A stretch of DNA of 64,000 nt from Polaromonas vacuolata (lineage in GTDB: Bacteria > Pseudomonadota > Gammaproteobacteria > Burkholderiales > Burkholderiaceae_C). The stretch spans positions 2,289,501 to 2,353,500 of the forward strand of contig NZ_CP051461.1 in NCBI RefSeq assembly GCF_012584515.1, read 5' to 3'. Below are positions 40,071-64,000 of this stretch, piece by piece. A model generated the notes under the pieces. That model worked only from the letters and a program-made list of their open reading frames with translations. It had not been told where the DNA came from and did no database searches. Position 1 is the first letter of the stretch, and the number at the start of each line of letters is the position of its first letter. The position numbers and the translations under genes were made by a program.

Positions 40071-40170
40071 AATCTTCAGGCATTTGCCACCGCATTGGTT
40101 TTTACACTGTAGAAAAACCCTTAAGCGAAAAATTAGTCTTTTTGAACAGCAATATTGACTGGTTTTTGGA

Positions 40171-41004: not shown

Positions 41005-41067
41005 AAAGTGATTCTATGTTTTATTGCTAGTCGCTAATTCAATACGCTGCGGTCTTTACATGTCGCG

Positions 41068-42808: not shown

Positions 42809-42970
42809 TGAGCGCCTTCTCGATCAACTCTTTGCCACCAGGAACTTTGTCTGCAAAAAGTTTGTAGGAAGTTTTTTGCGCAACAGCGCGCCAGGCATCT
42901 GCTTGCTCGTTGGTCAATGTAATGACCTCAACATTATTCTTTTTAAAAGTACTGACCATTTCGTCAGGCG
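42798..42970 (-). pseudogene. dctP: dctP 3' fragment
   Basis: The C-terminal ~57 codons of the interrupted TRAP solute-binding protein (DEMVSTFKKNNVEVITLTNE onward), separated from the N-terminal part by IS30 copy 2. Removing the element and one 2-bp duplication rejoins the frame as ...LDD-A-P-DEMV..., which supports insertion into a formerly intact gene. Part of an 85-codon open frame starting inside the element may be translated. Confidence 0.92.
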
Positions 42971-44894: not shown

Positions 44895-44955
44895 ACTGAT
44901 GTCTCCTGTTTATTGTTTGAACTTAGATGTTAGACGAAGGCAGTCACTTAAAAAA

Positions 44956-45708: not shown

Positions 45709-45837
45709 CTAGAAGATCTCCTTGGTGTGACCCATTGCGAATTTAAAGTCGCAAGGTTAAACAGGCAGACTAACGCTGAAGCATCATGATTTCCAATATA
45801 TTATTAGTGTCGATTAAGACTTTAAAAGTATCAAACC

Positions 45838-46710: not shown

Positions 46711-47097
46711 ACAACTTGTCTGTATGTAAATTGAAATTACTAGGGAAATGGAGTGTCGAAATTTTGACTAAGTTAATAAGCAGGAACAGTCCAAGATCCC
46801 AAATACAGACAATAAAAATATCGTTCACTCTTTATTTTTTGAGTCCAGTAGCCACTTGAAGTAGACCTTGGCGTCTACGCTCTAAGTTAGCAAAATTACA
46901 AAAAAAATGCTAGGTAGAGCGAATGGTCTATCAGTTTATTACTTACGACAACAATTCGAAGTTCTTGGTATTTAACAACTTCGAGCAAGTTAGCCGATTA
47001 CTGAAAAATAAAGACGCCACTAGAAAACTTTAAATTAGCCAACCGCCACAGCTAACAATTTGGCTAGCAAATTTGCTAAAAAGTTAACCGACGCTTT
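46711..47097. other. AT-rich intergenic region, no gene seen
   Basis: 387 bp between lysR and arsS, markedly AT-rich. It has no open frame with coding character. Two small inverted repeats occur near its right end: a TTAGCCAA/TTGGCTA pair (47035–47066) and the 14-bp perfect palindrome TAGCAAATTTGCTA (47065–47078). These might mark the end of the arsS transcript, though no U-tract follows. Confidence 0.5.
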
Positions 47098-48066: not shown

Positions 48067-48085
48067 AGGGTTCCAGTTTTTGAAG

Positions 48086-48982
48086 TTAACTTGTAAATCC
48101 GACCAGCAATGCGGCTAAACGTTCCCGTGTCTCCGGCGACATTGCGTTTGGGTGTGTGAGCAATGAGTTTTGCATCGCGCTGTGCGCCAAACTGATGGGC
48201 TGCTCAGCACCTAACAAACGAATCGCCTCCGCTAAAACATGTTGCGCACGGCTGGCGTTTTGTGTCAGGTTGGCCATGGCTAAGCTAGCCGTGACATGCG
48301 CTTCTACTGGGTGCCAGCAGTCAAAATCTGTCACCATGGCCAGTGTGCTGTAGGCCATTTGCGCTTCTCGAGCGAGCTTGGCTTCTGGCATATTCGTCAT
48401 ACCAATCACGCCTGCGCCCATGCTGCGGTAATAGTGCGATTCGGCTTGTGTAGAGAACTGCGGCCCTTCAATACAAACATAGGTACCACTGGTGTGCAGC
48501 GCAAGGCTACGGCTTGTCTTTGTAGGCTCGTCCTCTAAAACGCGGCGCACAGCACGCGCCAAAATGTCGGCAGTCGCTGCGCAAACCGGTTGCGCCATCG
48601 AAAAATGAGCGATCGCACCACGGCCAAAAAAAGTGCTTTCGCGACCTCGGGTCAGGTCTATGAACTGGTCTGGCAGCACCATGTCCAAGGGACGAAAGTC
48701 CTCTTTAAGCGAGCCCACAGCAGACACTGATAACACATAGCGCACACCGAGTTGTTTGAGCGCATAAATGTTGGCGCAATAAGCCACCTCAGAAGGTAGC
48801 AGACGATGACCACGACCATGGCGCGCCACAAAAGCCACAGGCACACCATGTACGCGGCCAATCACCAGCGGATCGGACGGCATACCAAACGGCGTGTTGA
48901 TCACCGCTTCCTGCACATCTTCGAGCGCATCCATTTGATAAAGACCGCTGCCGCCTATAACGCCAACCAGTGCTTGGTTCAT
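48086..48982 (-). CDS. mtnP: MTA/MTI phosphorylase-like purine nucleoside phosphorylase
   Basis: 298 residues of the MTAP branch of purine nucleoside phosphorylases. Motifs: VGVIGGSGLYQMD, FVARHGRGHRLLPSEVAYCANIYAL, LSVSAVGSLKEDF and EGPQFSTQAESHYYRSMGAGVIGMTNMPEA(LA). Usual reaction: 5'-methylthioadenosine (or -inosine) plus phosphate to adenine and methylthioribose-1-phosphate. Because it is directly upstream of arsS (19-bp gap), it may instead or also remove the base from a 5'-deoxy-5'-arseno-adenosine. AAGGA ribosome binding site. Specificity cannot be decided by eye. Confidence 0.88.
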   Translation of the reverse strand: MNQALVGVIGGSGLYQMDALEDVQEAVINTPFGMPSDPLVIGRVHGVPVAFVARHGRGHRLLPSEVAYCANIYALKQLGVRYVLSVSAVGSLKEDFRPLDMVLPDQFIDLTRGRESTFFGRGAIAHFSMAQPVCAATADILARAVRRVLEDEPTKTSRSLALHTSGTYVCIEGPQFSTQAESHYYRSMGAGVIGMTNMPEAKLAREAQMAYSTLAMVTDFDCWHPVEAHVTASLAMANLTQNASRAQHVLAEAIRLLGAEQPISLAHSAMQNSLLTHPNAMSPETRERLAALLVGFTS

Positions 48983-49114
48983 GATTTTTCCTTGGAAGCT
49001 TGGTAGTAAAAGACGGCCATAAAAATTGCAAGTCAGAAGCTGATGTAGGCTGAAGTGTAGGCAAAAAATCAGACCTTAAGCATAAACAAATAATGTGCTG
49101 TTCATGCGTTTTCT

Positions 49115-49169
49115 ATGCGCAACCAATGCCTAACTAATGCCTAATTAATGCGCAACTAGCACCCAACTA
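49115..49169. repeat. Five tandem 11-bp repeats
   Basis: Five consecutive degenerate 11-mers: ATGCGCAACCA, ATGCCTAACTA, ATGCCTAATTA, ATGCGCAACTA and GCACCCAACTA. They lie at the junction of the mtnP leader and the 3' end of the downstream-permease gene, with the permease stop codon inside the last copy. Reads as a decayed minisatellite or protein-binding array. Confidence 0.8.
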
Positions 49170-49970
49170 TTGCGCCATCGCACGTCGACTTAGGTAGCTT
49201 AAACCATCGACTAACACCACCAACAGCAGCATAGCCAGCAGCACCGTACTGGTCTTGTCCATTTGAAACAAACCCATATGAAAAGCTAACATCTGACCCA
49301 AACCGCCGGCGCCGACCACGCCTAGAACGGCAGCGGCGCGGATATTGTTTTCCCAGCGATACAGCGTGTAGCTGATAAGCTGAGGTAACAACTGCGGCAG
49401 CGTGGCATAGGTAAAAACACCAGCGCTTGAAACCCCACGCAACCTAAGCGCAAAGGCTGGACCATCGGGCGCGTTCTCTAAACTTTCGGCAAACAGCCGA
49501 CCTAGAACACCGGTGGTGTGCAGTGCGAGTGCCAAGGTTCCAGCCAAAGGGCCAAGGCCAGCAGAAATGAGTAGTAATGCGGCCCACACCAGCTCAGGAA
49601 CACTGCGCAAAGCATTGAGCAACAAACGCGTGGCTGAGCGCCATCGCGCCTTGTCATCGGCATGGGTTTTGGCCGCTGGTATAGCCAGAAGCAATGCAGC
49701 TATAGCGGCTAGGGCCGTACCCAAAGCAGACATGGCCAAGGTCTCTAGGGTTGCCCAGCCAATCTGGATGAGAAATACCGGGTCTAAATCAGGCACCAGC
49801 AATTCGACCACGAAGCGGCGCATACGGCCTAATGATTCGGGTAATAAAAACTGCGCCCATTGCAAATCCAAGGACCAAAAACTAATCGTGACCAGTAGCA
49901 AAACGGCCAGCACAAACCAGCAAGCCCGGCAGCGTGCATCAAACATGGGTGGGGGCAAAGGCCGGTTCAT
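49167..49970 (-). CDS. phnE: Phosphonate-type ABC transporter permease (second)
   Basis: 267 residues with about six membrane segments. The coupling loop GPAFALRLRGVSS and the conserved terminal VLGVVGAGGLGQMLAFHMGL fit the PhnE family. Second of two adjacent permeases; its ATG overlaps the first by 4 nt. The last codons lie in the tandem repeat. The real ligand of the complex (phosphonate, phosphite, or another oxyanion) is unknown. Followed by mtnP and arsS. Confidence 0.88.
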   Translation of the reverse strand: MNRPLPPPMFDARCRACWFVLAVLLLVTISFWSLDLQWAQFLLPESLGRMRRFVVELLVPDLDPVFLIQIGWATLETLAMSALGTALAAIAALLLAIPAAKTHADDKARWRSATRLLLNALRSVPELVWAALLLISAGLGPLAGTLALALHTTGVLGRLFAESLENAPDGPAFALRLRGVSSAGVFTYATLPQLLPQLISYTLYRWENNIRAAAVLGVVGAGGLGQMLAFHMGLFQMDKTSTVLLAMLLLVVLVDGLSYLSRRAMAQ

Positions 49971-50812
49971 GCTAAGCCCTCACGCAGCCAACCGCTGACT
50001 TTATCGGACAGCCACACCAAGGCCATAAAGACCAGCAGCATGGTGGCCACTTCAGAGCCGTTAAACATCTTCATAGAAGAATCCATCAACTGACCCAAGC
50101 CACCCGCGCCCACAAAGCCCAGCACGGCTGAAGATCGAATCGCACACTCCCATCGGTAGACGGTATAGCTGGTCAGTTCAGCGGCACTTTGCGGCAACAA
50201 GGCATAGAAAAAAGCTTGTAGTCGTCCTGAGCCATTGCGCATCAAGGCCTGGGTCGGTTGGGCGTCGCTAGACTCCATGATGTCGCCGTAGACCTTGCCC
50301 AGCATGCCGGAGTAAGTCAGTGCAATCGCTAACACGCCACTGGTTGGACCCAAGCCCACCACGCGCACAAAAATCAAGGCCCAAATAAGTTCTGGCACGC
50401 TGCGCAGCACAATCAAAATCCAGCGCACTAGCTGACGCAGCGACGCCGGCAACACATCCACGCGGCCAGACAGCGCAGACAGCGACAAGGTGCGCACCGA
50501 CAGCAATGCAAAGGGAATCGCCAGCAACATGGCCAGGGTTAAACCGGCTGTTGCAATGGCTACCGTGCGCCAAGTTTCTTTGAGCACCAACAACAAGAAA
50601 TCAGGCTCTACCTTGGGCGGGAAAAAATCCCCCACAAAGCGCAACGTAGGCGTGAGGCTTTCTGGCGTAAACAGTACCCAAGGCTTGAATTCAGCCAGCA
50701 CCAGCATGGGCCAGGCGATAACCAGCCCAGCTAGACACCAAAAAATCCGGCTGCGCCAAGCAGGGTCGGTGCGGCGTGGTTGCGTATTACTTTTGAAAGA
50801 GCTCACCGGCAT
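49967..50812 (-). CDS. phnE: Phosphonate-type ABC transporter permease (first)
   Basis: 281 residues, about six membrane segments, PhnE-like. The cytoplasmic loop reads QALMRNGSGRLQAFFYALLP and the terminal helix contains VLGFVGAGGLGQLMDSSMKM. Start codon ATG overlaps the phnC-like gene by 10 nt. Two permease genes in one cluster probably form a heterodimer, in contrast to the common homodimeric PhnE. Confidence 0.88.
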   Translation of the reverse strand: MPVSSFKSNTQPRRTDPAWRSRIFWCLAGLVIAWPMLVLAEFKPWVLFTPESLTPTLRFVGDFFPPKVEPDFLLLVLKETWRTVAIATAGLTLAMLLAIPFALLSVRTLSLSALSGRVDVLPASLRQLVRWILIVLRSVPELIWALIFVRVVGLGPTSGVLAIALTYSGMLGKVYGDIMESSDAQPTQALMRNGSGRLQAFFYALLPQSAAELTSYTVYRWECAIRSSAVLGFVGAGGLGQLMDSSMKMFNGSEVATMLLVFMALVWLSDKVSGWLREGLA

Positions 50813-51633
50813 TGCATGGCTACCCGTGCGCGTGGCGCGGGCACGTCATCCATCCTGGGCGCTGGACCTGTGAGTTCTTCAAGATTACTCGCGTATAACG
50901 ATTGCAAAATCGAGGGACTGACTTCTGCGGATGGCAAGTCAAAAACCAATTCACCGCCGCGCAAACCGACGATGCGCGGGAAATACGCCAAAGCCATCTC
51001 CACATGATGGAGCGACGTTACCAAGGTTGCGCCACGCTCACGGGCCGCATCGCAAATCGCTTGCAAAGCTTGGCGGGCACGTTCAGGGTCTAACGCAGAG
51101 AGTGGTTCATCAACTAGTAGCAGCGAAGCACTAGACGCCAACATTCGGGCCAGACCTACGCGTTGGCGCTCACCGCCGGATAACCGGTCAACTCGCTCAA
51201 AGAGTTTTTCTGACAGATCAAACTGCGCCAGTGCGGCATCAGCCAAATCCGTCTCACGCGGGTAAAACAAGCTTTGCAGCGAATACCACAAACTCATCTC
51301 TGGCAAACGGCCAGCTAGCACAGCACTGACTACCCGTTGCCGTGGTGGCAGTGGCGGTACTTGGGGCGCTAAAAAAACCTGTGCGCGCTGGCGTTTAAGC
51401 GCCGAACTACCGAGTTGCCAAGGGTCAACTCCATCCATTTCAAAATTGCCTTGCTCCGGCCTTTGGGCGCAGGCTAGCAATTGCAGCAACGTGGTTTTAC
51501 CCGCGCCAGACGGCCCAATAATGGCCAATTGCTCGCCACTCGCTAGCGCCAAGCTAATGCGAGTTAACGCATCAGACGCCGCTGCCACTGCTGCCGGATG
51601 GCGCGCTGAGCAGGAATGCAAATCAAGCTTCAT
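50803..51633 (-). CDS. phnC: Phosphonate-type ABC transporter ATPase
   Basis: 276 residues. Walker A GPSGAGKTTLLQL, signature LSGGERQRVGLARML, Walker B LLLVDEPLSALDPE and H-loop region TSLHHVEMAL are complete. It matches the PhnC group by size and by context between phnD and phnE. The ORF is 31 bp downstream of phnD. Confidence 0.92.
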   Translation of the reverse strand: MKLDLHSCSARHPAAVAAASDALTRISLALASGEQLAIIGPSGAGKTTLLQLLACAQRPEQGNFEMDGVDPWQLGSSALKRQRAQVFLAPQVPPLPPRQRVVSAVLAGRLPEMSLWYSLQSLFYPRETDLADAALAQFDLSEKLFERVDRLSGGERQRVGLARMLASSASLLLVDEPLSALDPERARQALQAICDAARERGATLVTSLHHVEMALAYFPRIVGLRGGELVFDLPSAEVSPSILQSLYASNLEELTGPAPRMDDVPAPRARVAMQCR

Positions 51634-51664
51634 GCGCTACATCCAATCGAAACAAACACACGCA

Positions 51665-52552
51665 TTATTTGAGCAGACCGGCGCTGCGCGCTGCCGTCTC
51701 AATGCCTTTGTAGTTTTCGGCCTTAGTGGGCACAAAACGCGTGGCGCGCTGCAAATCAAGAATGGCTTTACCTTCAGCGGTATTGGGGGCCAGGTCGAGA
51801 AAGGCTTTGGTGATTTTTTCTTTCAGCGCGGCTGGCATGTCGGCATGCACCGTCCAGTTGTAGTCGTAGTAAGTCGGCGTGGTGAAGATCACATGCACTT
51901 TGGCTGGATCAACTTTTTTATCCAGTACGAATTTTTCCCACACCGAGATATTCAGCGCACCCACATCGACCTTGCCGGCCGCAACTGCAGCGATAGTGGC
52001 ATCGTGCGCACCAGAGTAAGCCACGCGCTTGAGGTCTTTCTCAGGATCGATTTTTGCTTCAAGCAAAAAACTGCGCGGCATCAAGTGGCCAGAGGTGCTG
52101 GACTGCGAGCCAAAGCTCAAAGTCTTGCCTTTGAGGTCAGCCAATGTTTTGATTGCTGGGTCGCTGGTGATGAACACTGAGCGAAATTTTGTATCTTCTT
52201 CACGCTGCACCAAAGGCACTACTTTGCCACCCGAGCGCTGTTGAGCTTGGACGAAAGTAAAGCCGCCAAACCAAGCCATATCCACTTGCTTATTAGCCAG
52301 CGTTTCAACTGCCGCTGCGTAGTCAGACACTGGCGTGAACTCAACCTTCATACCCAGTCTTTGTTCTAAATACTTCACCAACGGACCGGCTTTGCGCGCC
52401 AACTCAGTCGGCGACTCATCAGGAATGGCGGTGATTTTAAGAACTTGCTGGGCTTGCTGCGCTTGCGCTGGCAGGACGGTCATAGCGCCTAAGAACAAAA
52501 AAGCACTGGAAACCAGTGTTTTTAGTGTGTTGGCTAGGTTGAGTTTTGACAT
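51665..52552 (-). CDS. phnD: PhnD-like periplasmic binding protein
   Basis: About 295 residues from ATG 52552; the frame begins at a TTG 13 codons earlier. The signal peptide ends near LPAQA-QQ. PhnD/PtxB-like features: AIPDESPTELARKAGPLVKY, VDMAWFGGFTFVQAQ and SFGSQSSTSGHLMPRSFLL (the anion-binding Ser/Thr-rich turn). Typical ligands are phosphonates or phosphite, but the neighbouring arsS and mtnP raise the possibility of an organo-arsenic or other oxyanion ligand. First gene of the phnDCEE-mtnP-arsS unit. Confidence 0.88.
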   Translation of the reverse strand: MSKLNLANTLKTLVSSAFLFLGAMTVLPAQAQQAQQVLKITAIPDESPTELARKAGPLVKYLEQRLGMKVEFTPVSDYAAAVETLANKQVDMAWFGGFTFVQAQQRSGGKVVPLVQREEDTKFRSVFITSDPAIKTLADLKGKTLSFGSQSSTSGHLMPRSFLLEAKIDPEKDLKRVAYSGAHDATIAAVAAGKVDVGALNISVWEKFVLDKKVDPAKVHVIFTTPTYYDYNWTVHADMPAALKEKITKAFLDLAPNTAEGKAILDLQRATRFVPTKAENYKGIETAARSAGLLK

Positions 52553-52810
52553 GAAGTAAATGTGTTTTTGAGTTAAAGAATTTAAAAACAAGCGTCATTA
52601 CAGCGTGAATGCCAAGGGCTTGCTTAAGCAGGGAATTAATTCAAGAAGATGGGATGTTGAGCCGCTCATGTTTTGGGGTTCAATTTTTTAGTGCTCAATT
52701 TGCGCCGAGCATGACTTTGAGATAACTGAGTTCACTGCTACAAGCGCTGAAAGCACAAATTGATAACAAAAAATTATTACAAAAACTTTGCAGCTAGCTA
52801 AATTGATAGC

Positions 52811-53072
52811 ATGAACCGCAAACAACTCAAGACTCTTGATGCGTTATTTACAAAACCTACTACGGCATCAATGAAATAGGCTCGTATTGAGTCATTGCTG
52901 ATTGCTGATTGCTGCAGGATATTTAGTTATAAAAGGCCGCGGTTCACGAGTGCGCTTTGTACAGGGGTCAAAAATAGCCACCTTCCACCGACCGCATCCG
53001 GCGAAAGAGGCCAAACAGTAGCAAGTCGAAGACGCTAGTCATTTTTTAACCGCTATTGGAATAAGGCCATGA
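52811..53072 (+). pseudogene. hicA: Inactivated HicA toxin
   Basis: Starts MNRKQLKTLDALFTKPTTAS and continues with segments matching HicA (AAGYLVIKGRGSRVRF, TFHRPHPAKEAKQ, FLTAIGIRP). It is broken three times: an in-frame TAG at 52877 in the position usually Trp; a third copy of the 7-bp unit ATTGCTG (52894–52914) that shifts the frame by +7; and a second TAG at 53019 where a Tyr codon is expected. With one repeat removed the frame length is 84 residues, normal for HicA. Its final TGA overlaps the hicB ATG by 4 nt. Confidence 0.85.
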
Positions 53073-53407
53073 ACACCATGACCCATATGGGACAAACAGC
53101 ACGAATTGAATTCGACGATAAAGACAATATTTTCGTCGGCCGTCTGCTCGGCATTACAGACAGCATTAGCTATCATGCGGATACGGTTGTAGCACTCCGT
53201 CAAGCTTTTGTAGAGGCGGTCGACGACTATATTGAGACCTGCGCGAAGATTGGCAAACCGGTAGAAAAACCGGCCAATGGAAAAATCTTGCTACGCGTAC
53301 CACCGGAGCTGCATAGCGCCGCATTGATTGCGGCTGAGGCAGCGGGAACAAGCTTAAATCAGTGGGCTACAAAAGCACTTCATCAAGCCGCATACGTAAT
53401 AGATTGA
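53069..53407 (+). CDS. hicB: HicB-family antitoxin
   Basis: 112 residues. N-terminal HicB-type partial RNase H fold (ARIEFDDKDNIFVGRLLG, SISYHADTVVALRQAF) followed by a ribbon-helix-helix DNA-binding part (GKILLRVPPELHSAALIAAE, GTSLNQWATKAL). Starts within an ATGA overlap with the dead hicA and has a TAAGG ribosome binding site. It is now an antitoxin without its toxin and may persist as a regulator. Located between phnD and senA. Confidence 0.88.
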   Translation: MNTMTHMGQTARIEFDDKDNIFVGRLLGITDSISYHADTVVALRQAFVEAVDDYIETCAKIGKPVEKPANGKILLRVPPELHSAALIAAEAAGTSLNQWATKALHQAAYVID

Positions 53408-53528
53408 ACAATCGCCAACCGTTTCCCAATGCCAAAAAACTGGCGTTGAAATACAAACTTCGCTCGCACACCAATGCGCGCGCCACAAGAAGTTAGATAT
53501 TACAAATTCAGCTTTTAGATCCGCTCAA

Positions 53529-54779
53529 TCACCGACAAGTACGAAACCCAGCATGAATATCATTGCGTTCAGGGGTAAAAAAATTGCGTAAACGTGGATG
53601 TGCCAAGCTGGGTGCAGTCGCCAAGCTCGCGCCACGCAGCACGGGTCGATCGTCAAACCAAGGCGCTGAGTAATCACGGTAAGGGTGAATTTCAAAGCCC
53701 GGGTAAGGCTGAAATGAACTAGCAGTCCACTCCCACACTTCGCCCCACACAAACTCTGGCTGCGTCATGGCTGCGCATTCCCATTCGGCCTCGGTAGGCA
53801 AGGACAAACCGGCCCAGCTGCACCAAGCTTGAACTTCAAAAAACGAGAGATGCACGGCGCGGGCATTGAGGTCTAACGCCTGCCAAACACCAAAGCGCTG
53901 GCATTGCCAGCCGCCATCTTGAAGCCTCAGGTAAAGCGGTGCGGTGAGTTTTTCTGCCGCTAACCAGTCCCAACCTTGGGCCGACCACCAACGTTTATCG
54001 GTGTAACCGCCTTGTTCCACAAACGGCAAGAAGCGCGACCAGCTCACGCACTGACTGTCCATCTCGCGCTGTTGTATCGCGACGCTATGGGCGGGCAGTT
54101 CGTTGTCAAAGGCAAAGCCAGTCCCATCACTACCTAATTGCCAATTGCCCGCAGGCAGCGTGAATGTGGCTGGGCCATCGATTGGGCGCGCAACTGGCTT
54201 AGCAAGCAAGTCAGACGAGAGTGCAAAGCCCATGGCTTGGGCCATGTAGACCGCGGCTTCGCAGTGCATGTCTTCATGCAGCAGCGCCAAACGGAAAAAG
54301 TAAAGCGCTTGGTCGTCCTCTGGGCTTTGCGCTAATAAGGCCAAAGTCCTAGTCAAACCGGCCTGCAAATCTGCACGCGTTGCATCTATGGTGGGCAAAG
54401 CAAAATCCCACCGCGCTTGGTGTGAGATAAGGCTAGAGTTGTACAAATCATCATCGGTCACACCATTGACCAGCGAGCGCGGCGCGCTGTGAACGCAAGC
54501 TGAGTCATACGCCGTCCCTAAGGCACGCTGGGGATTACGGGCAATCCAATAGTCCTGAAACCAGCCCAGATGGCCAAGCTCCCATCTAGGCGGATTGAGC
54601 TGCGGGCTGCGCGGGACGGGCAATGCGTGGCCTAAAGCGACTTCATAGCAGTCGAGTAATGCCAAGCTGCGGGCACGGGTAGCGCGCAGTAAAGCGGCTA
54701 ATTCAGTGCTACTAGCATGGCGTGCAGCATGGGCGGTCTGCCATGGCTTAGTGGAGGGCTTTGCTGAAACTGGCATCAT
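53529..54779 (-). CDS. senA: Selenoneine synthase SenA (EgtB-like)
   Basis: About 416 residues. Non-heme iron enzyme of the EgtB/SenA group: an N-terminal DinB-like domain supplies the three-histidine site (His70 in WELGHLGWFQDYW; His168 and His172 in LLHEDMHCEA), and the C-terminal formylglycine-generating-enzyme-like domain ends PEFVWGEVWEWTASSF... RGASLATAPSLAHPRLRNFF. SenA joins hercynine and a selenosugar with O2 to make selenoneine. EgtB is the alternative, but the neighbouring senB and selD favour SenA. Three start codons in a row (GTG 54782, ATG 54779, ATG 54776). The senB start is at 54791. Confidence 0.88.
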   Translation of the reverse strand: MMPVSAKPSTKPWQTAHAARHASSTELAALLRATRARSLALLDCYEVALGHALPVPRSPQLNPPRWELGHLGWFQDYWIARNPQRALGTAYDSACVHSAPRSLVNGVTDDDLYNSSLISHQARWDFALPTIDATRADLQAGLTRTLALLAQSPEDDQALYFFRLALLHEDMHCEAAVYMAQAMGFALSSDLLAKPVARPIDGPATFTLPAGNWQLGSDGTGFAFDNELPAHSVAIQQREMDSQCVSWSRFLPFVEQGGYTDKRWWSAQGWDWLAAEKLTAPLYLRLQDGGWQCQRFGVWQALDLNARAVHLSFFEVQAWCSWAGLSLPTEAEWECAAMTQPEFVWGEVWEWTASSFQPYPGFEIHPYRDYSAPWFDDRPVLRGASLATAPSLAHPRLRNFFTPERNDIHAGFRTCR

Positions 54780-54790
54780 CACGACATTCT

Positions 54791-55822
54791 ATGAAACAAA
54801 AAATTGTCATTATCAGCCCTGCATTGAAAGCCGCGAACAACGGCAATTGGCAAACCGCCAACCGCTGGCAAAAGATGCTCAGCCCGTATTACCAAGTGCG
54901 AATTAGCCAGAATTGGCCGGATGGACCCGAAGCTCAGCACGACAAAGTCATGCTGGCTTTGCACGCACGGCGCTCGGCAAGCTCAATTGCCGCTTGGGCT
55001 AAAGCGCATGCGCCTAGCCAAGCGGCAAACATCAGCAGTCCTGGATTGGCCGTGGTTTTAACCGGCACAGATTTGTACCGCGACATCCACGAAGACGCGC
55101 AAGCTGCGCATTCCCTGGAATTAGCGCAGTGCTTGGTAGTACTGCAAGAATGTGGCCCAGAGGCACTACCCGAAGCGCTGCGCGAGCGCGCCATGGTGAT
55201 GTTTCAATCCACCAGTGAGCGCCGTGCTTTGGTCAAAACCCAGCGCCACCTGCGGGTCGTGATGGTCGGCCATTTGCGGGATGAAAAAACCCCGGAAACG
55301 CTGATGAATGCAGCGCGGCTAATCGCGCCAAACGAAGGCATATTGATTGACCACATTGGTGCGCCGCTTGACGCAAACCTGGGTCAACTGGCCGAAGCCA
55401 CGGCAGCGGATTGTCCACATTACCGTTGGCTAGGCAGTCTCAGTCACGCGCAGACACGGCGGCGGATTCAGCAAGCCCATTTATTAGTCCACACCAGCCG
55501 CATGGAAGGCGGCGCCCATGTGGTGATGGAGGCCGTGCGCAGCAACACACCCGTGTTGGCTTCCAACATTGATGGCAATCGCGGCATGTTGGGCGCAGAT
55601 TACGCCGGCTATTTTGACTGGAACAACGCCGAGCAACTGGTCAGTCTGCTACGCCAAGCCCGAGCCAGCCAAAGCAACAACAACGATGACAGCGATTTAC
55701 TAAAAACGCTGCAAGCGCAAAGCCATCAACGCGCCGCCTTGTTCGCGCCTGAAACAGAGCAAGCGTCGCTGCTAAAACTGGTGGCTAATTTACTCAATAC
55801 TTCTTCGAACACAATTACCTGA
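54791..55822 (+). CDS. senB: Selenosugar synthase SenB
   Basis: Glycosyltransferase-like enzyme of about 343 residues that makes a selenosugar from selenophosphate and a UDP-sugar in the selenoneine pathway. GT-B features: N-terminal KIVIISPALKAANNGNWQT, central VVMVGHLRDEKTPETLMNA, and the C-terminal E-x7-E region SRMEGGAHVVMEAVRSNTP. Start chosen at ATG 54791 (an upstream TTG-type extension overlaps senA). The stop overlaps the senC ATG by 1 nt. Without the senA/senC context I would only call it a glycosyltransferase. Confidence 0.85.
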   Translation: MKQKIVIISPALKAANNGNWQTANRWQKMLSPYYQVRISQNWPDGPEAQHDKVMLALHARRSASSIAAWAKAHAPSQAANISSPGLAVVLTGTDLYRDIHEDAQAAHSLELAQCLVVLQECGPEALPEALRERAMVMFQSTSERRALVKTQRHLRVVMVGHLRDEKTPETLMNAARLIAPNEGILIDHIGAPLDANLGQLAEATAADCPHYRWLGSLSHAQTRRRIQQAHLLVHTSRMEGGAHVVMEAVRSNTPVLASNIDGNRGMLGADYAGYFDWNNAEQLVSLLRQARASQSNNNDDSDLLKTLQAQSHQRAALFAPETEQASLLKLVANLLNTSSNTIT

Positions 55823-58125
55823 TGCAAAAATCAACCCAAGCCATAGCCCGCGATATCGTTTTAGTCGGCGGCGGCCACAGTCACGTTGGCGTGCTCAGAC
55901 GCTTTGCCATGAAGCCAGAACCCGGCGTGCGTTTGACCCTGATCTGCACCGATGTGCACACCCCCTACTCCGGTATGTTGCCCGGCTACGTGGCCGGTCA
56001 TTACGACTATGACGACGTTCACATAGACCTAGGCCGGCTGGCAGTATTTGCCGGCGCACGGCTTTACCGCGACGAAGTCATAGGCCTAGACCGCAGCGGT
56101 CAGCGCGTGCTGTGCCGCAATCGCCCAGCCGTGCCGTATGACTTGCTGTCCATCAACATAGGCTCTACACCACAACTCGCTGGGGTCGAGGGCGCAGAGC
56201 AGCACGCTGTCCCAGTCAAACCCATTTATGCCTTTAACCAGCGCTGGCTGGCGCTGCTAGCGCGGGTGCGTCAGCATACCCAAGGCCCACTGCGTATTGC
56301 AGTGGTGGGCGCGGGCGCAGGTGGTGTGGAATTGCTGCTGGCCATGCAATACCGCTTGCTCAATGAATTCAAAGCGCTGGGCCGCGACCCCAAACTGTTG
56401 CAATTTATTTTGCTGGGTGCCGATGCCGAAGTTTTACCCACCCACAATGCCGGTGTCAAACAGCGCTTTACGCGCGTGCTAAGCGAGCGCGGCGTAGCCA
56501 TGCATTTAGGCAGCGAGGTCACCCGGGTTGAGGCCAATACGCTGATATGCGCCACGGGAGAAATCGTCACAGCCGACGAAATCATGTGGGTCACCCAAGC
56601 CGGCGGTGCGCCTTGGCTTAAAAAAACCGGCTTAGATCTGGACAAAGGTGGCTTTTTAATCGTCAACGATTGCTTGCAAAGCACTAACGACGAACGCGTG
56701 TTTGCAGCTGGCGATATTGCGGCAATGCAAAACTACCCGCTGCCAAAAGCCGGTGTCTTTGCCGTGCGCCAAGCCAGACCACTGGCCGACAATATGCGCC
56801 TTAGCCTGCAAGGTAAACCGCTAAAACCGTACCACCCGCAAACCAATTGGTTGGCATTAATTAGCACCGGCGACCGCTATGCGGTAGCGTCACGCGGTGC
56901 CATCGGTTTTGCCGGCGCTTGGGTCTGGCGCTGGAAGGATTGGATTGACCAGCGCTTTATGCGCAAGTTCTCTGATTTCGAAGCCATGGACGAGCACAGC
57001 CAAGCCGCAAGCTCTAAAAGCGCAGCTAGCGCAACCACCTCCTTGGCACTGAGCCAAGAAGAATCCCAGCAAACCATCTCTGCGATTGCCATGCGCTGCG
57101 GCGGCTGCGGGGCAAAAGTCGGCGCCAGCGTATTGAGCCGAGCACTGGGCAATTTGCATGTGATTGACCGTGAAGACGTACTAATTGGCCTGCATTCCCC
57201 CGACGACGCCGCCGTAGTGCGCGTGCCACCGGGCAAAGCCATGGTGCATTCGGTTGACTTTTTCCGCTCCTTTATCGATGACCCCTACATCTTTGGCAAG
57301 GTCGCCGCGAATCATGCGCTCGGCGATATTTTTGCCATGGGCGGCGAAGCACAAACCGCCACCGCGATTGCCACCGTCCCGCCGGGCTTGGAAGCCAAGG
57401 TTGAAGACGTGTTGTTCCAGATGATGACGGGTGCAGTTGAGGTGCTCAATGAAGCCGGCTGTGCCTTGGTTGGTGGCCACACCGGAGAAGGCAGCGAATT
57501 GGCATTAGGTTTTGCCATCAACGGCTTGATTGACGAAAACCTCGATCAGATCTTGACCAAAGGCGGCATGAAAGCTGGCGACGTGTTGATACTCACCAAG
57601 CCCATAGGCACTGGCACTTTGTTTGCTGCTCACGCAAGACTGGCCGCGCGCGGTCGCTGGATTGATGCGGCGCTAAAGTCCATGGTGCAGTCCAACCGCA
57701 TAGGTGCAATTTGCCTGCGTAAATATGGTGCGACAGCTTGTACCGATTTGACTGGCTTTGGTTTGCTTGGCCACTTGGTCGAGATGACCAAACCTTCTGG
57801 CGTTGACGCCGAGCTGAGTTTGTCTGCATTGCCGCTGTTAGACGGTGCGCTGGAATGCGTAAATGCCGGCATTGTGAGCTCGCTGCAACCGGCCAATGTG
57901 CGCTTGCGTCGTGCATTGCGCAACCAAGAAGCGTTTGTTAAAAACGAGCGCTATCCCTTGATTTTTGATCCGCAAACCGCGGGTGGATTACTCGCTAGCG
58001 TGCCGGCAGATAAAGTCCAAGCCTGTATTGCTGAGCTAAAAGAATTAGGCTATCCGCACACTGTTGTTATTGGACGAATATTGGAACAGGGCGAGGCGAT
58101 TGAGCCGATTTTGTTAGTTGATTAA
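55822..58125 (+). CDS. senC: Selenophosphate synthetase fused to FAD oxidoreductase (SenC)
   Basis: 767 residues in two domains. Residues ~1–400 are a pyridine-nucleotide-disulfide-type FAD protein (DIVLVGGGHSHVGVLRRF at the start; second nucleotide fold IAVVGAGAGGVELLLAM). From ~424 SelD begins: CGGC at 426–429 (the catalytic Cys/Sec position is Cys), then FFRSFIDDPYIFGKVAANHA, ALGDIFAMGG and GGHTGEGSELALGFAINGL. SelD turns selenide and ATP into selenophosphate, here the donor for SenB. The fusion is known in SelD families; it may supply selenide by a redox step (inference). Confidence 0.9.
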   Translation: MQKSTQAIARDIVLVGGGHSHVGVLRRFAMKPEPGVRLTLICTDVHTPYSGMLPGYVAGHYDYDDVHIDLGRLAVFAGARLYRDEVIGLDRSGQRVLCRNRPAVPYDLLSINIGSTPQLAGVEGAEQHAVPVKPIYAFNQRWLALLARVRQHTQGPLRIAVVGAGAGGVELLLAMQYRLLNEFKALGRDPKLLQFILLGADAEVLPTHNAGVKQRFTRVLSERGVAMHLGSEVTRVEANTLICATGEIVTADEIMWVTQAGGAPWLKKTGLDLDKGGFLIVNDCLQSTNDERVFAAGDIAAMQNYPLPKAGVFAVRQARPLADNMRLSLQGKPLKPYHPQTNWLALISTGDRYAVASRGAIGFAGAWVWRWKDWIDQRFMRKFSDFEAMDEHSQAASSKSAASATTSLALSQEESQQTISAIAMRCGGCGAKVGASVLSRALGNLHVIDREDVLIGLHSPDDAAVVRVPPGKAMVHSVDFFRSFIDDPYIFGKVAANHALGDIFAMGGEAQTATAIATVPPGLEAKVEDVLFQMMTGAVEVLNEAGCALVGGHTGEGSELALGFAINGLIDENLDQILTKGGMKAGDVLILTKPIGTGTLFAAHARLAARGRWIDAALKSMVQSNRIGAICLRKYGATACTDLTGFGLLGHLVEMTKPSGVDAELSLSALPLLDGALECVNAGIVSSLQPANVRLRRALRNQEAFVKNERYPLIFDPQTAGGLLASVPADKVQACIAELKELGYPHTVVIGRILEQGEAIEPILLVD

Positions 58126-58174
58126 GACACTTTATGCCGCCTCAAAAAAGGCATAAAAAATTCGAATTAAACGT

Positions 58175-58567
58175 TCAAGCCAAATTGCTCACATGCGCAC
58201 TGACCACGCGCCAACCATCCGCTGTACGCAGCCAAGTCTGGCTTTGCCGGCCCGGCCGTGCGCTGCCGTCGCGTTGAAACTCTAGGTTGACAGTGGCCAT
58301 GTCTTGGCCGTAGCTGGTGATCACACTGCGTAGCACGGTGCGCGCCAGCCCCACCGCTGGTCGGCTGGCACGAAACGCACAGATGGCTGCATAGCTATAA
58401 AGATTTTCGCCAGCGCCATAGCGCAGCGTGTGTGGGCTGTTCCAGAATAATTCGTCGAGCACAGCAACGTCATTACTCACCAAGGCCTGCTCGTAGCGCT
58501 CACTTTGCACTTGCACTTCTGCAAGCACCTGCGGCAGATTAATCTCCATGTGGCTGTGGGTTGTCAT
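58175..58567 (-). CDS. AtzH/HpxZ-like protein
   Basis: About 130 residues with an NTF2-like (SnoaL/DUF3225) fold: [38 protein letters not shown] and TVNLEFQR...[10 protein letters not shown]...[10 protein letters not shown]. This family accompanies AtzE/AtzF-type amidases and HpxXY in purine-ring catabolism (oxalurate). The frame extends 17 residues upstream into atzE; ATG 58567 lies 1 nt after the atzE stop and is preferred. Function within the complex is unproven. Confidence 0.82.
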
Positions 58568-58568
58568 A

Positions 58569-59984
58569 TCAAAAATTAACCGTTTTAAGTTTTGCCAAGC
58601 CGGCTGTTTGCAGCACAAGCGCTGCGCGCAAGGCTAAGTCTTCGCGCCAAGGCGCAGCAATAATTTGCACACCGATTGGCATGCTGTCTGTTGATGTCGG
58701 CCACATCGGTGCGGCGACTACCGGACAGCCGGCGAACGAAATTGGCTGAGTCAGCAAACCCATGGCCGCACGGCAAGGATGCTGCGTGCCATTGATATCT
58801 AAAAAATCAGTCCCAATCACAGGCGCACTGACCGGCGTGGCGGGTGCTAACAACACATCCCAATCTTTGAACAAAGCATTCACGCGATCACGGTAGCTGC
58901 GTCTAAAACGTTGCGCAGTTAAATACCAATGCGCGGGTTGCAAGGCGCCAGCAATAAAGCGGTCAACTGAAAGTGGCTCAAATTCAGCGCTATGCTGGCG
59001 CAAATCGTCCAAGTGCAAACTGCCGCCTTCGCTAGCGGTGATGATAAAAGCCGCGGCTCGGCCAAGTGCCGCATCTGGCCAAGTTACGGTATCCACAGCG
59101 CCCAAAGCTTTAGCCGCAGCCGCCACCACTTCACGCGCAGCAGCAGTTGCGTTGTCATGAAAATAGCCATCCAAAATACCCACGCGCAGACCTTGCATGC
59201 CGCGGCCTAATTCGCCACTGGCGAGCTGCACGCGAAGCGCGTGACAACCCGGGTCTAGCGCATCCGGGCCTTGCAACACGTCATAGGCCAGCGCCAAGGA
59301 TTCCAGACTGTCCGCAAACGGGCCGAGGTGATCTAGGCTGTGCACAAAGGGGTAGCTGCCGCGGCGCGAAAGCCTGCCAAAAGTAGGTTTAAGCCCCCAA
59401 ACACCGCAAAGGGAAGCCGGCACGCGGATAGAGCCGTTGGTGTCCGAGCCCAAGCTAATACTCACCTGCCCGGCCGCAACCGCAGCGCCGCTGCCGCCCG
59501 ATGAACCACCAGCAATCCGACTCGCAACTTTATCGTGTGGGTTGCGGGTTGGGCCGTAGTGCGTGTTCTCGGTGGTAAAGCCGTAGGCGTATTCGTCCAT
59601 GTTCAAGGAACCCACCAACACCGCACCGGCAGCCTGCATTTGCCGCACCAAAAAAGCATCGCTCTGCTGCGGCGCATGGCGGCGGTTGATGATGGAGCCA
59701 GCTAAGGTGATTTCGCCGGCCACGTCGTAGAGATTTTTCACGGCATAAGGCACGCCCGCTAATGGCGGCAAAGCCGCACCGCTGGCGCGCAGAGCATCAA
59801 TCGCATCAGCCTCCCTCACAGCCCGATCGTGGTGGCGACTGGTGAATGCGTTGACTTGACCATCACTCTGATCAATACGCGCCATGCAGTCATTGAGCGC
59901 TTGGCGCGCGCTGAGCTGGCCGGTCTTAATGGCTTGGGCTAAGGCCATTGCGTTCATAGGTTTTTCAGATGACGTTTGGCTCAT
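58569..59984 (-). CDS. AtzE/HpxY-family amidase
   Basis: Amidase-signature hydrolase, 471 residues. Ser-cisSer-Lys triad: Lys83 in [11 protein letters not shown], cis-Ser in [15 protein letters not shown] (~162) and nucleophilic Ser185 in [13 protein letters not shown]. Closest to AtzE (1-carboxybiuret amidohydrolase) and HpxY. Overlaps the AtzG-like gene by 4 nt and is followed by the AtzH-like gene, which matches the conserved trio. Which small amide (oxalurate, carboxybiuret, another ureide) is cut is unknown; no cyanuric acid hydrolase or allantoinase is in the window. Confidence 0.85.
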
Positions 59985-60235
59985 AGCGATTTGTCCTGCT
60001 GTTCTTGCGTGGCCTGCAATGGAAACGCTAGCGGGCAGTAAATCTCAGCCAATTCATGATCCGGCGCGAGTTTGAGCGCATCGAGTTGCTGAGCCATTAA
60101 AGCCGTGCGCTCAAGTTGCTGGGCCACGCGTTCAGCCTGCGCTGGTGCTAGCGATAATCCCAGCAGTGCAGCGCTGTTAGTGACATAAGCAAGCATCTCA
60201 AAGTCTGATGTTTGACGGGGGATTTGATCTGCCAT
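59981..60235 (-). CDS. AtzG/HpxX-like small subunit
   Basis: 84 residues, DUF4089 type, all helical. AtzG stabilises AtzE by binding beside it. It lies directly before the amidase, overlapping its start by 4 nt, and begins right where the transporter ATPase stops (60236), so expression is tightly coupled. Sequence MLAYVTNSAALLGLSLAPAQ and LAEIYCPLAF fit the group. Confidence 0.82.
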   Translation of the reverse strand: MADQIPRQTSDFEMLAYVTNSAALLGLSLAPAQAERVAQQLERTALMAQQLDALKLAPDHELAEIYCPLAFPLQATQEQQDKSL

Positions 60236-61057
60236 TTAACGCCTCACTTCACGTTGGAAAATCTCTAGGCTGCGTTTTTTTGCAGCGATAAAACCGGGTT
60301 CAGTTAAGGTCTCAACCGTGCGTGGGCGCGGCTCGTCATAGCGCAGTATTTCTGCGACTTTGGTTGGCCTTTTAGTCAGTAGCAAAACTTCGTCGGCGAG
60401 GTAAACCGCTTCTTCCAAATCGTGCGATACCAGCAGCATGGTGGTGCCGGTTTGCATAAAAACTTCTTGCAACTTTTCACGAATGAAAAGCGTCATTTCA
60501 AAATCCAGCGCAGAAAACGGCTCATCTAAAAATAACACCTCAGGCTTGGGTGCCAGCGCCCGCATGATGGAAGCGGTTTGCTGCTGGCCACCCGACAACT
60601 CATAAGGAAAGCGATTTAAATCAAACTTCACATCAAAGGAAGCCACCAACTCAGCCATGCGTCTATCGACTTCAAGCTTGGATTGCCCGGCTAATTTAAG
60701 CGGATAAGCAATGTTGTCTATGGTGCGCATCCACGGGAAAAGCGCTTCACGGTAGTTTTGAAAAACGTAGCCAATGCGCGTGTCTTTGAGCGATTTACCG
60801 TCAAATAAAATCTCACCAGCATCAATTGGCACCAGCCCGGCAATCATATTAATCAGGGTTGATTTGCCGCAGCCGTTAGGGCCAAACACCGAGACGATTT
60901 TGTGCTTAGGAATATCTAAATCAAAGTTTTCATACAGCGGCCAGCCAGCAAAATATTTAGTCAAGCCGCGAATGGTGATATGCGTGCCAGCCGGCCCTGG
61001 CCGAAATGGCGCGACCGGAATATCCGCAGAAAAAGGCGCGTTAAGAACTCTACTCAT
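60236..61057 (-). CDS. NitT/TauT-family ABC transporter ATPase
   Basis: 273 residues. Walker A GPNGCGKSTLI, Q-loop FQNYREALFPW, Walker B LFLDEPFSALDF and H-loop VSHDLEEAVYLAD. The signature LSGGQQQTASIMRA has Thr where Arg/Val is usual, a common variation in this branch. Drives import by the permease and binding protein encoded upstream, with which it overlaps by 4 nt. Substrate probably the same compound as the amidase acts on. Confidence 0.9.
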   Translation of the reverse strand: MSRVLNAPFSADIPVAPFRPGPAGTHITIRGLTKYFAGWPLYENFDLDIPKHKIVSVFGPNGCGKSTLINMIAGLVPIDAGEILFDGKSLKDTRIGYVFQNYREALFPWMRTIDNIAYPLKLAGQSKLEVDRRMAELVASFDVKFDLNRFPYELSGGQQQTASIMRALAPKPEVLFLDEPFSALDFEMTLFIREKLQEVFMQTGTTMLLVSHDLEEAVYLADEVLLLTKRPTKVAEILRYDEPRPRTVETLTEPGFIAAKKRSLEIFQREVRR

Positions 61058-61935
61058 CTTCCACTCCAGTGAACAATACGGCGCTCAGCCAATAAAAATA
61101 AAATATTCAAACCGTAGCCCAAAGCACCGGCAGCCAAAATCGAAGCATACATATCGCGCACATTAAGCACCTGCTGCGAATTGATAATGCGGTTACCCAA
61201 ACCGCTGTCCGCGCCAATAAACATTTCCGCCACAATCACAATCACCAAGGTCATAGACACGGCCGAGCGCAATCCGACAAAGCTTGGCTGCAAGCTTTCC
61301 CAAACCAGCACATCGCGAAAAATTTGCCAACGCGAAGCACCCATTACCCGGGCCGCCATGACGCGTTGTTTGCGCGCATTCATCACACCGTAAGCGCTGT
61401 TGAAAATAACAATCAGCACAGCGCCAAATGCAGCAATAGCGACCTTATTAATATCAGACACGCCAAACACCATCATGAACAGCGGAATCAAAGCCGAAGA
61501 CGGCGTGGAGCGAAAAAAATCAATCAAAAATTCGACACTTCGGTAGGCTTTTTCGTTGCTACCCAACACCACGCCTAGCGGCACACCAACGACAGCCGCA
61601 ATCGAGAAAGCCTGCACCGTACGCCACACCGTGACGCCAAAATCATGCAGCAAGCTGCCGCCCGCCAAACTATTGAGCAAAGCCATGATGGCGTCCAAAG
61701 GCGGTGGCAGCAAGATGGCTTTAACCAAACCAAAACGCACGGTTAAGTCCCATACTAAAAACAACAAAATCGGGCCTATAAAAGGCAAAATTTTGTCCCC
61801 TATGCTGGTGCGTGGCGCTTGGCTGGCGCTGGGCTGAGCTGATGCTGGCGGCGACCAAGGCGTGCTGTTGGCGGATGTTGCAAAGGGCGTAGCAGAAGTC
61901 GGCGTGTTAGGTGTCGCGTCTTTCATAACGCTCAA
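61054..61935 (-). CDS. NitT/TauT-family ABC transporter permease
   Basis: 293 residues, six membrane segments. A Thr/Ser/Pro/Ala-rich stretch (about 1–45) precedes the first segment and is unusual for the family. EAA-like loop: AARVMGASRWQIFRDVLVWE. Overlaps both neighbours by 4 nt. Resembles SsuC/TauC permeases. Confidence 0.9.
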   Translation of the reverse strand: MSVMKDATPNTPTSATPFATSANSTPWSPPASAQPSASQAPRTSIGDKILPFIGPILLFLVWDLTVRFGLVKAILLPPPLDAIMALLNSLAGGSLLHDFGVTVWRTVQAFSIAAVVGVPLGVVLGSNEKAYRSVEFLIDFFRSTPSSALIPLFMMVFGVSDINKVAIAAFGAVLIVIFNSAYGVMNARKQRVMAARVMGASRWQIFRDVLVWESLQPSFVGLRSAVSMTLVIVIVAEMFIGADSGLGNRIINSQQVLNVRDMYASILAAGALGYGLNILFLLAERRIVHWSGR

Positions 61936-62936
61936 GCCTTATGCAGCATGGAGTCAACCATCAAGCGTTTTGTGATGATGCCTTTATCCAAAAACAAGTC
62001 ATAAAACTTCTGGAAGTAAGCGATATCGGATGCCGTAAATTCGTTGTGCAGGGTGTAGGCGGCCAGCGGCACTTCGGCTGTTAATGCGCCTTCAATCGCG
62101 GTATAGCCTTTTAAGTATTGGCGCGCCTCAGCCGGCTTGCTGCGCACATAAGCAACGCCTTTGGCGTAAGCGTCGATATAGCGTTTAGCGACCAGTGGAT
62201 TTTTCTTGATAAAGCCAGAAGTGAGCGACGCCACACCGCCAAACCAAGGCGCCATTGAGTCACCCAAAACATAGTGAGAAATCACACCGGCTTCAAGCAC
62301 ACGGGTTGTGCCGTTGAGCCGACCAATCGTGCCAGTGGGCTCTAAGGTGTAGGCGCCATCGAGCTGACCGGCAGCGAGTGCGGCGACATGCTGACCGATT
62401 GGCAATTCAATCACCGTCGCACCGACTGCACCGCCGCGCTCAAGAATAGTTTTTGCCAAGGTCACGTTTTGAATCCCGGGGCCACTGCCTACACGCTTGC
62501 CTTTGAGGTCAGCAATAGTTTTGGCCGTGCTAGCGACCGGCACTATGACTTCGTCAAGCACGTTTTTAAGATTGCTAGGATTGGCACAAAAAATCTTAAA
62601 ACTGCCGGGCGCAGCAATTTCACCAATCGCGATATTGCCTGAGCCCGTACCGTTGGCACTGCCTTCAACCCGCTCAGACAACATGCCCTCCATAATTTGC
62701 TGCGCACTCGCAAAACGCACGGCTTCAACATTCAAACCAGCCTCTTTAAAGTAACCCAATTCAACCGCCGCATAAAACGGCAGACCGGCAGCGATAGGCC
62801 AGTAACCGACACGAATAGTCGGCGCCGCCTGGGCACGAACCAGCCCAGGGATACTGCCGACAGCAGCGCCTGCACCCAGCACTTTGAGCAATTGACGACG
62901 GGTTGCGAGTGGGGTTTTGAAATTATTTGTAGTCAT
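61932..62936 (-). CDS. NitT/TauT-family substrate-binding protein, Tat signal
   Basis: 334 residues. The N-terminus has a twin-arginine signal TRRQLLKVLGAGAAVG with an AQA cleavage site near residue 37. Mature part: TIRVGYWPIAAGLPFYAAVE, LKGKRVGSGPGIQNVT and YTLEPTGTIGRLN. A SsuA/TauA-like fold is likely. First gene of the operon running to the AtzH-like gene; ligand unknown. Confidence 0.9.
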   Translation of the reverse strand: MTTNNFKTPLATRRQLLKVLGAGAAVGSIPGLVRAQAAPTIRVGYWPIAAGLPFYAAVELGYFKEAGLNVEAVRFASAQQIMEGMLSERVEGSANGTGSGNIAIGEIAAPGSFKIFCANPSNLKNVLDEVIVPVASTAKTIADLKGKRVGSGPGIQNVTLAKTILERGGAVGATVIELPIGQHVAALAAGQLDGAYTLEPTGTIGRLNGTTRVLEAGVISHYVLGDSMAPWFGGVASLTSGFIKKNPLVAKRYIDAYAKGVAYVRSKPAEARQYLKGYTAIEGALTAEVPLAAYTLHNEFTASDIAYFQKFYDLFLDKGIITKRLMVDSMLHKA

Positions 62937-63536
62937 GGTGATGTTCTTGCGATTTTGATAATTGACGAATTGAAAAATTTTTTAAAGACAAAACTAAACA
63001 GCGATCGGTAAGAATTCGGAAAGGAGTCGGCAAGCGCGCTTTTAGAAATCAACCCAAAAAGGGCTGCGTACTCGCGAGCAGCGCACCAATTGAAGGTTTT
63101 CTTTCTTTTCATAGATTGGATATAGCAAGAGCTGTGCCTGCTTGGGAAATAGCTCCCCAGAATGGTGAAAAGCATTTCAACAAGTAATAACCACTGCACT
63201 GCATTGCATTGCATTGAATAATTTTTAAAACTATTCGCGCCTCTAACTGCGACTCAATTTAGAACCAGTGTGGCACCTGCAAACTTCGCGCTAAGGTATC
63301 AAAAATGCATTGAATCAATTGCTTTTTTGTTTTGTTAAGTACTGATCACGTTCACTTTAGCCAATCGTTTCAGCACCCATTCACTCAATCAATTCATCTC
63401 AAAGTTGTGCGATAAAAGTCAAGCCGCGTTAGATTTTTGGTACGCCTGTCTCTATTTGAGAATTGACTATTTAGAACTACATTAAGCGACGTTTAAAAGC
63501 ATGCTGAATTTTTGAATAATTTTTTTAGGGTGGAAC
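62937..63536. promoter_or_regulatory. Divergent intergenic region, 600 bp
   Basis: Between the ABC operon and the cysE-like gene. AT-rich; holds a (GCATT)3 micro-repeat at 63201–63215 and a weak antisense-type open frame (62933–63214, minus) with no ribosome binding site or coding character. Operators for the ABC operon and the plus-strand gene should lie here, but I cannot name any. Confidence 0.4.
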
Positions 63537-64000
63537 ATGTCTCTAATGCAAACTATTGAATCGCAAATACAAGCTGCACTATGGGAATGCTGCGCACCAA
63601 CGTATATTCGTTTGGTGACTGACAACGGTCTAGTTGGCAAGGTGTTGGAAATACTGCATGAAGACGCTACTGCATTCGCTAACAAAGACCCAGCATCAAA
63701 CGGCGATCTCACACGCATTGTTCAAACCTACACATCGTTTCGTGCAGTGCTTCACTATAGGGTTGCACATGAAATGCTTAGCCTGCAGGCGGACACCTGT
63801 GAAAACGTCTGCAACGCCTTACTGATTTCTAGCCGAGGAAAATTATTATCCGGCGCCGAGTTACACCCAAGTTGCCATATCGGCCGTCGTTTCGTACTTG
63901 ATCATGGTATGAGTAGCGTTTTTGGAGAAACCGCCAGCTTGGGTGACGACTGCTACGTGCTCGGGGGTGTCACATTAGGGGCAGATGGCATTTCTGGCAA
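63537..64000 (+). CDS. Serine acetyltransferase-like protein (partial)
   Basis: The gene runs off the window: 154 codons present from ATG 63537, with an AGGGTGG ribosome binding site. N-terminal helical region then left-handed beta-helix repeats (GAELHPSCHIGRRFVLDHG, VFGETASLGDDCYVLGGVTLGA). The HG...GET segment matches CysE-type serine O-acetyltransferases, which make O-acetylserine for cysteine synthesis. The rest of the catalytic domain is beyond the window, so subtype is open. Confidence 0.8.
   Translation, partial: MSLMQTIESQIQAALWECCAPTYIRLVTDNGLVGKVLEILHEDATAFANKDPASNGDLTRIVQTYTSFRAVLHYRVAHEMLSLQADTCENVCNALLISSRGKLLSGAELHPSCHIGRRFVLDHGMSSVFGETASLGDDCYVLGGVTLGADGISG

Follow-up and report, generated by a model that had tools for sequence, protein, structure and literature searches.

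What product should be expected from the senA–senB–senC locus of Polaromonas vacuolata, and can the genome around it supply what the pathway needs? We analysed a stretch of 64,000 nucleotides (the window), corresponding to positions 2289501 to 2353500 of the single-contig, 3.84-Mb genome (NZ_CP051461.1). The original prediction had placed here a complete cluster for selenoneine synthesis, a type of cluster reported by Kayrouz et al. in 2022. Our results point to a genuine sen cluster that is coupled to a predicted uptake system for selenium oxyanions and that is predicted to make selenoneine; from the sequence comparisons described below, we give this reading a probability of about 0.88. Selenoneine was the best-supported product because no EgtB scored over cut-off in the genome and because SenA grouped away from EgtB. 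All three genes were found where they had been predicted, with senA on the opposite strand and head to head with senB, and the predicted 1-nt overlap of the senB stop and senC start codons was seen in the junction CTGATG. The claim of completeness held for these three genes but not for the unit as a whole, as four putative transporter genes just upstream of the cluster (49167–52591) had been overlooked.

The product of senA reached 502.8 bits with NF041186, the equivalog model for SenA (cut-off 420), and its closest match in the PDB was the solved SenA 8k5i (E 3.6e-126). Three start codons are candidates (ATG 54776, ATG 54779 and GTG 54782). The protein has the three histidines that had been claimed for it: His71, His169 and His173 (417-aa numbering) are predicted to bind the iron, and Glu175 is also kept. 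For comparison with relatives we used 71 further senB loci, which come from 70 genomes. The three histidines and the glutamate were intact in all 53 SenA sequences scored from sen loci, among them that of the window, and also in 6/6 EgtB sequences. EgtB shares both the fold and the three-histidine site with the window SenA, and the selenoxide synthase OvsA shares its fold, but the OvsA and EgtB matches were far lower (158.5 and 133.6 bits, respectively) than that to SenA (425 bits).

The common fold and triad raise the alternative that senA really encodes an ergothioneine enzyme of the EgtB type and that senB and senC serve another purpose. The presence of EgtD in the genome would fit such a role, and senA did score 252 bits on the EgtB model. 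This score, however, is below the EgtB cut-off of 360, whereas the cut-off of the SenA model was exceeded. Moreover, in a tree of 89 SenA and EgtB rows (all our trees are quick ones, with support given only by the Shimodaira–Hasegawa-like approximate likelihood ratio test, SH-aLRT), the window SenA fell inside an 18-row set made up of SenA only (SH-aLRT 95), while the EgtB rows were set apart (SH-aLRT 100). The original prediction had named a grouping of SenA with EgtB as the result that would speak against it; the tree separated the two. Of 55 SenA-type frames, 53 entered the tree and the triad count, L025 being left out as shorter than 340 aa and L009 as a duplicate; L009 is the same place as L055 (both contigs have 279612 bases) and was also dropped from the spacing, motif and cysteine counts and from the SenB tree described below. 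Six of seven EgtB-type frames entered the tree. The head-to-head arrangement of senA and senB, found here and at many relatives' loci, likewise argues against the ergothioneine alternative, which we consider highly improbable; senA as an EgtB was rejected on the sub-cut-off score and the tree position. In the window the two ATG codons lie 11–14 bp apart. Among 17 other divergent senA/senB pairs scored by script, 12 had ATG pairs 5–28 bp apart, three overlapped by 13–99 bp, one was spaced at 1492 bp and one had no start found; these spacings were computed from ATG starts only, and the true starts may differ.

The identity proposed for senB was borne out by profile search (TIGR04348, 419.5 bits; cut-off 300). 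Its matches in the PDB were 8jjq (the best, a solved SenB, E 2e-113), 8fbx, 8jjn and 8k5u; 182 of 297 aligned positions were identical, and the motif EGGAHV is present. Judged from the alignment to solved SenB, the start is better placed at ATG 54791 than at TTG 54761, the choice of the open reading frame (ORF) tool. All six residues named in the accessible part of PMC10891094 (N20, T23, H58, R155, K158 and E231) are conserved in the window SenB.

As had been predicted, the third gene encodes SelD fused to a flavin adenine dinucleotide (FAD) domain. The N-terminal part matched the oxidoreductase family TIGR03169 (508.3 bits; cut-off 310) and the C-terminal part the SelD family TIGR00476 (293.2 bits; cut-off 125). 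Alignment to solved SelD showed that the catalytic Cys and Lys are kept, in an active site that reads CGGCGAK (residues 426–432). The protein labelled senC is not the usual stand-alone SelD but an Ndh–SelD fusion: it differs from single-domain SelD with GGGCGCK both in being fused and in its active site, and it has TIGR03169 and TIGR00476 in one chain together with a CxxC in the SelD part. At the sen loci CGGCGAK was found in 14/14 fused proteins and GGGCGCK in 58/59 stand-alone SelD frames; the lone frame without the motif comes from L054, where SelD is split and this frame is the second part. The SelD half of the window protein was 72–87% identical to fused SelDs and 30–34% identical to stand-alone ones, a range that leaves out one 37% fragment.

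According to the parts of PMC2398784 (Zhang and Gladyshev 2008) available to us, Ndh–SelD fusions carry a CxxC that is rarely seen in single-domain SelD; the restriction of CGGCGAK to fused proteins in our survey agrees with this. The fusions treated there and in PMC4561486 (Mariotti et al. 2015, also seen in part) share with senC the Ndh-like N-terminus, the Cys-type C-terminal SelD and the CxxC active site. The parts of the two papers available to us link them to selenophosphate that goes into selenoproteins and selenouridine; the selenoneine operon, which both papers predate, is not mentioned in these parts. In contrast to the selenoprotein-linked Ndh–SelD systems, the genome studied here has no SelA match.

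Could the FAD domain be an unrelated NADH dehydrogenase, joined to SelD by chance and without a role in selenium chemistry? NDH-2 enzymes are among the sequence matches of senC, and the two conserved cysteines among the four of its oxidoreductase domain (present in 14/14 and 13/14 fused proteins) do not form a CxxC pair. Against a chance fusion, the CxxC-type SelD active site occurred in 14/14 fused proteins compared with 0/58 stand-alone frames with a readable motif, a coincidence of fusion and CxxC as reported for other Ndh–SelD fusions in what we could consult of PMC2398784. In addition, unfused TIGR03169 oxidoreductase genes occur in the neighbourhood of some sen islands; among three such genes that were tested, L022:10192–11598 and L030:2211–3446 were over cut-off and that of L037 was below. 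On balance, a chance fusion appears rather unlikely.

We also followed the two SelD types over a quick SenB tree of 80 rows, nine of which were the window or named genomes and eight of which had no SelD label. The labels (14 fused and 58 stand-alone) required at least five changes, compared with a mean of 13 after shuffling, and two of the changes were forced by well-supported branches. The type of SelD adjoining senB has therefore probably been exchanged more than once. As sen operons contain two quite different types of SelD, 'senC' is more aptly understood as whichever SelD the cell has in its sen operon, rather than as a single orthologous gene.

The original prediction had placed hercynine synthase (EgtD) outside the window and had hercynine coming from elsewhere or being imported. 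The first point was confirmed by a genome search: the single EgtD match lies at 1165371–1166270 (361.5 bits; cut-off 290.9). Hercynine can thus be made by the cell itself, and the import that had been suggested is not required. SenA is the one clear consumer of hercynine in the genome, because EgtD is present and no EgtB was over cut-off. We note that egtD adjoins arsH (L002:4588–6409), and that an ArsH homologue also lies near EgtD at another senB locus, L042.

The senC protein is the only SelD over cut-off in the genome, the second match (37.6 bits) being far below. The genome also encodes MnmH, at 1.37 Mb, and gave no match to SelA, on which ground selenoprotein use of SelD was rejected. 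From these three findings, senC probably supplies both the selenoneine route and tRNA 2-selenouridine. It could be argued from the same findings that the fused SelD serves mainly tRNA selenouridine and that selenoneine is a minor product or is not made under usual conditions, all the more since no promoter near the sen genes was above chance. However, senC starts inside the senB stop codon, so the two genes are probably translated together, and the catalytic residues of SenA and SenB are intact; we regard a mainly tRNA-directed SelD as quite unlikely. With SenA and SenB over their cut-offs, their catalytic residues kept, and SelD and EgtD encoded, the claim that the strain can make selenoneine holds as a statement of genomic potential.

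The route to selenoneine would run as follows. The PhnCDE-like ATP-binding cassette (ABC) transporter would import selenate or selenite, which cellular reduction would convert to selenide. By homology, the SelD domain of senC would form selenophosphate from selenide and ATP, and SenB, whose catalytic residues are intact, would move the selenium onto a uridine diphosphate (UDP)-sugar and cleave the Se–P bond. SenA, as a three-histidine iron enzyme, would then use O2 to couple the selenosugar with hercynine, and breakdown of the selenoxide would yield selenoneine. The hercynine would be supplied by the unlinked egtD gene of the same genome.

The transporter genes are listed in the table together with the sen genes. 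The binding protein scored 411.9 bits on TIGR04553 (cut-off 250), a family named 'putative selenate ABC transporter substrate-binding protein', and like other proteins of this type it has PhnC- and PhnE-like partners. The solved structures nearest to it in sequence were phosphonate- and phosphite-type binding proteins. A binding protein more than 50% identical to that of the window was present within the fetched stretch at 42/71 other senB loci.

Table. Genes of the sen cluster and of the adjoining putative transporter (window positions)
Feature	Position	Strand	Basis
senA, selenoneine synthase (predicted)	53529..54782	-	NF041186 SenA model, PDB match 8k5i, triad, tree
senB, selenosugar synthase (GT-B Se-glycosyltransferase), 343 aa	54791..55822	+	TIGR04348, PDB matches, six residues
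senC, Ndh-type FAD/pyridine-nucleotide oxidoreductase fused to SelD (selenophosphate synthetase)	55822..58125	+	TIGR03169 and TIGR00476
Periplasmic binding protein, putative selenate ABC transporter	51665..52591	-	TIGR04553
ABC transporter ATPase, PhnC-like	50803..51633	-	PF00005; TIGR02315, 190 bits, below cut-off 266.1
ABC transporter permease, PhnE-like	49967..50812	-	TIGR01097, 213.3 bits, just below cut-off 216.7
ABC transporter permease, PhnE-like	49167..49970	-	TIGR01097, 252.8 bits (cut-off 216.7)

When 200 genomes were sampled from the same family, 71 had SenB over cut-off. Of these, 62 had EgtD (E up to 1e-20), compared with 71 of the remaining 129 (Fisher p 2e-6, ignoring common descent); 131 of the 133 EgtD matches were over cut-off. 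SelD was found in 71/71 and 110/129, respectively (Fisher p 2e-4, with the same disregard of descent). At the 71 other senB loci, the fetched stretch contained SelD in 65 cases (52 stand-alone and 13 fused), SenA in 50, EgtD in 30 and EgtB in three. The SenA count comprises 49 found at 38% identity or more and that of L064, which fell below this filter but scored 493.8 bits on the SenA model. Since only 52 of the stretches measured at least 18.8 kb and 19 were shorter, mostly at contig ends, absences at these loci are upper bounds. The one same-genus sister in the draw, G099, had no SenB over cut-off. A stand-alone SelD lies at another place in G099, and the gene order to the right of the cluster (58.2–62.8 kb) is conserved there; a DNA search and 20 kb of fetched sequence gave no match to sen or transporter genes, the protein search elsewhere in G099 having covered SenB and SenA-like proteins only.

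Several points weigh against a sen cluster coupled to selenium uptake. Selenate as the substrate of the transporter is putative, being taken from a family name that itself contains this word. The surveyed genomes are related, and the Fisher values are uncorrected for descent; furthermore, 9 of the 71 senB genomes had no EgtD, and some but not all of these are incomplete drafts. The N-terminal oxidoreductase of senC would probably use NAD(P)H to maintain the SelD CxxC, or any bound selenium, in the reduced state, but this is a putative role, and an AlphaFold2 model of the fused protein from a two-row alignment (window and L009) was unusable, with a mean predicted local distance difference test score (pLDDT) of 33.6. 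Finally, a promoter scan near the genes was uninformative (2 sites compared with 6.5 in shuffled sequences).

At 21 of the 71 loci senB was seen without SenA in the fetched stretch (for example L018, L035, L037 and L040). The genomes of these four carry a SenA-like paralogue with an intact triad elsewhere, and the genome studied here (G000:C1) also encodes a second SenA-like protein, at 849857–851152 (L005:1294–2592; L128:9857–11155). In this protein the third iron histidine is replaced by Gln, and its score of 384.1 bits is below the SenA cut-off of 420. The sister-genome paralogue (L127:6030–7337) has Arg at this position and, in a genome without senB, still exceeded the cut-off (444.3 bits). 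Such paralogues are an annotation trap, passing the SenA cut-off without the third iron histidine.

The paralogues are open frames and were nested within SenA as a set of 33 rows with support 100, three of which were sen-locus SenA. Among 37 paralogues sampled, which are part of those detected, 10 kept the complete triad and 27 did not; the third position of the latter was Arg in 17, Val in 4, Gln in 2, Cys in 2, Ile in 1 and Leu in 1. The full triad was kept in 5/6 paralogues whose genomes have senB yet lack SenA in the sen stretch, in 1/9 whose genomes have both and in 4/22 whose genomes have no senB (5/6 versus 5/31, Fisher p 0.003, uncorrected for descent). The sixth member of the first class (G110) has another SenA-like match elsewhere in its genome. 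The simplest reading is that the intact paralogues act as SenA in trans and that the others have left that job, although the four intact paralogues from genomes without senB do not fit it. The paralogue of our genome, which stands beside a predicted working SenA, falls in the class that left.

A PBP-domain regulator was near the paralogue at 11/22 loci examined, and TupABC-like transport genes at 12/22. Both adjoin the paralogue in the genome studied here and in the sister genome; at the former locus the TupA and TupB models were best or second-best family matches, below their cut-offs. In 6 of 20 tabulated genomes without senB (L162–L167) no more than 230 bp separate the paralogue from a stand-alone selD; the 20 were hand-picked, and at least eight more carry the paralogue without a SelD match, or without a placed SelD, among the matches listed. 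We found no description of this SenA-derived family in the literature searched, the scope of which excluded most subscription papers, the original sen paper among them. Tentatively, the paralogues may have arisen from selenoneine synthase after the loss of SenB and may now have a selenium- or oxyanion-linked role with altered metal chemistry, or serve as a sensor; we consider this possible rather than likely.

The known sen cluster of Variovorax paradoxus DSM 30034 consists of SenA, SenB and SenC (PMC9814287; also PMC10891094 and PMC10702425, both seen in part). Its three activities are common to the window, where SenA and SenB score as equivalogs and keep their catalytic residues. The window differs in that its SelD forms a fusion with an FAD oxidoreductase and carries the CGGCGAK active site, in that egtD is unlinked, and in that a putative selenate ABC transporter adjoins the cluster. 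We take the V. paradoxus SenC to be a stand-alone SelD. The terms 'FAD' and 'N-terminal' are absent from the main text of PMC11929427, in which V. paradoxus SenC is engineered. The window locus is thus a sound and largely expected sen cluster; what is new is a member with variation in SelD, the fusion itself being unusual but known. It combines a full predicted route from selenium to selenoneine, uptake included, with a genome that has no EgtB over cut-off, a clean setting in which to ask what selenoneine does.

The guanine-plus-cytosine content was 0.53–0.58 over 47500–59499, except for 0.468 at 52000–53499, compared with 0.47–0.50 in 40000–47499 and 0.46–0.52 in 59500–63999; we draw no inference from this modest rise inside the window. 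No RNA element matched Rfam at gathering scores in 45000–62000. Between the transporter genes and senA there is an ORF of the HicB family (PF05534; 53069–53407); an intact HicA-like partner upstream of it was not seen by eye, no dedicated search having been made. Close to the putative selenate transporter lie the genes for a radical S-adenosylmethionine (SAM) protein with DUF3641 and for a methylthioadenosine (MTA) phosphorylase (47098–48982), a pair that, we presume, resembles arsenosugar biosynthesis genes.

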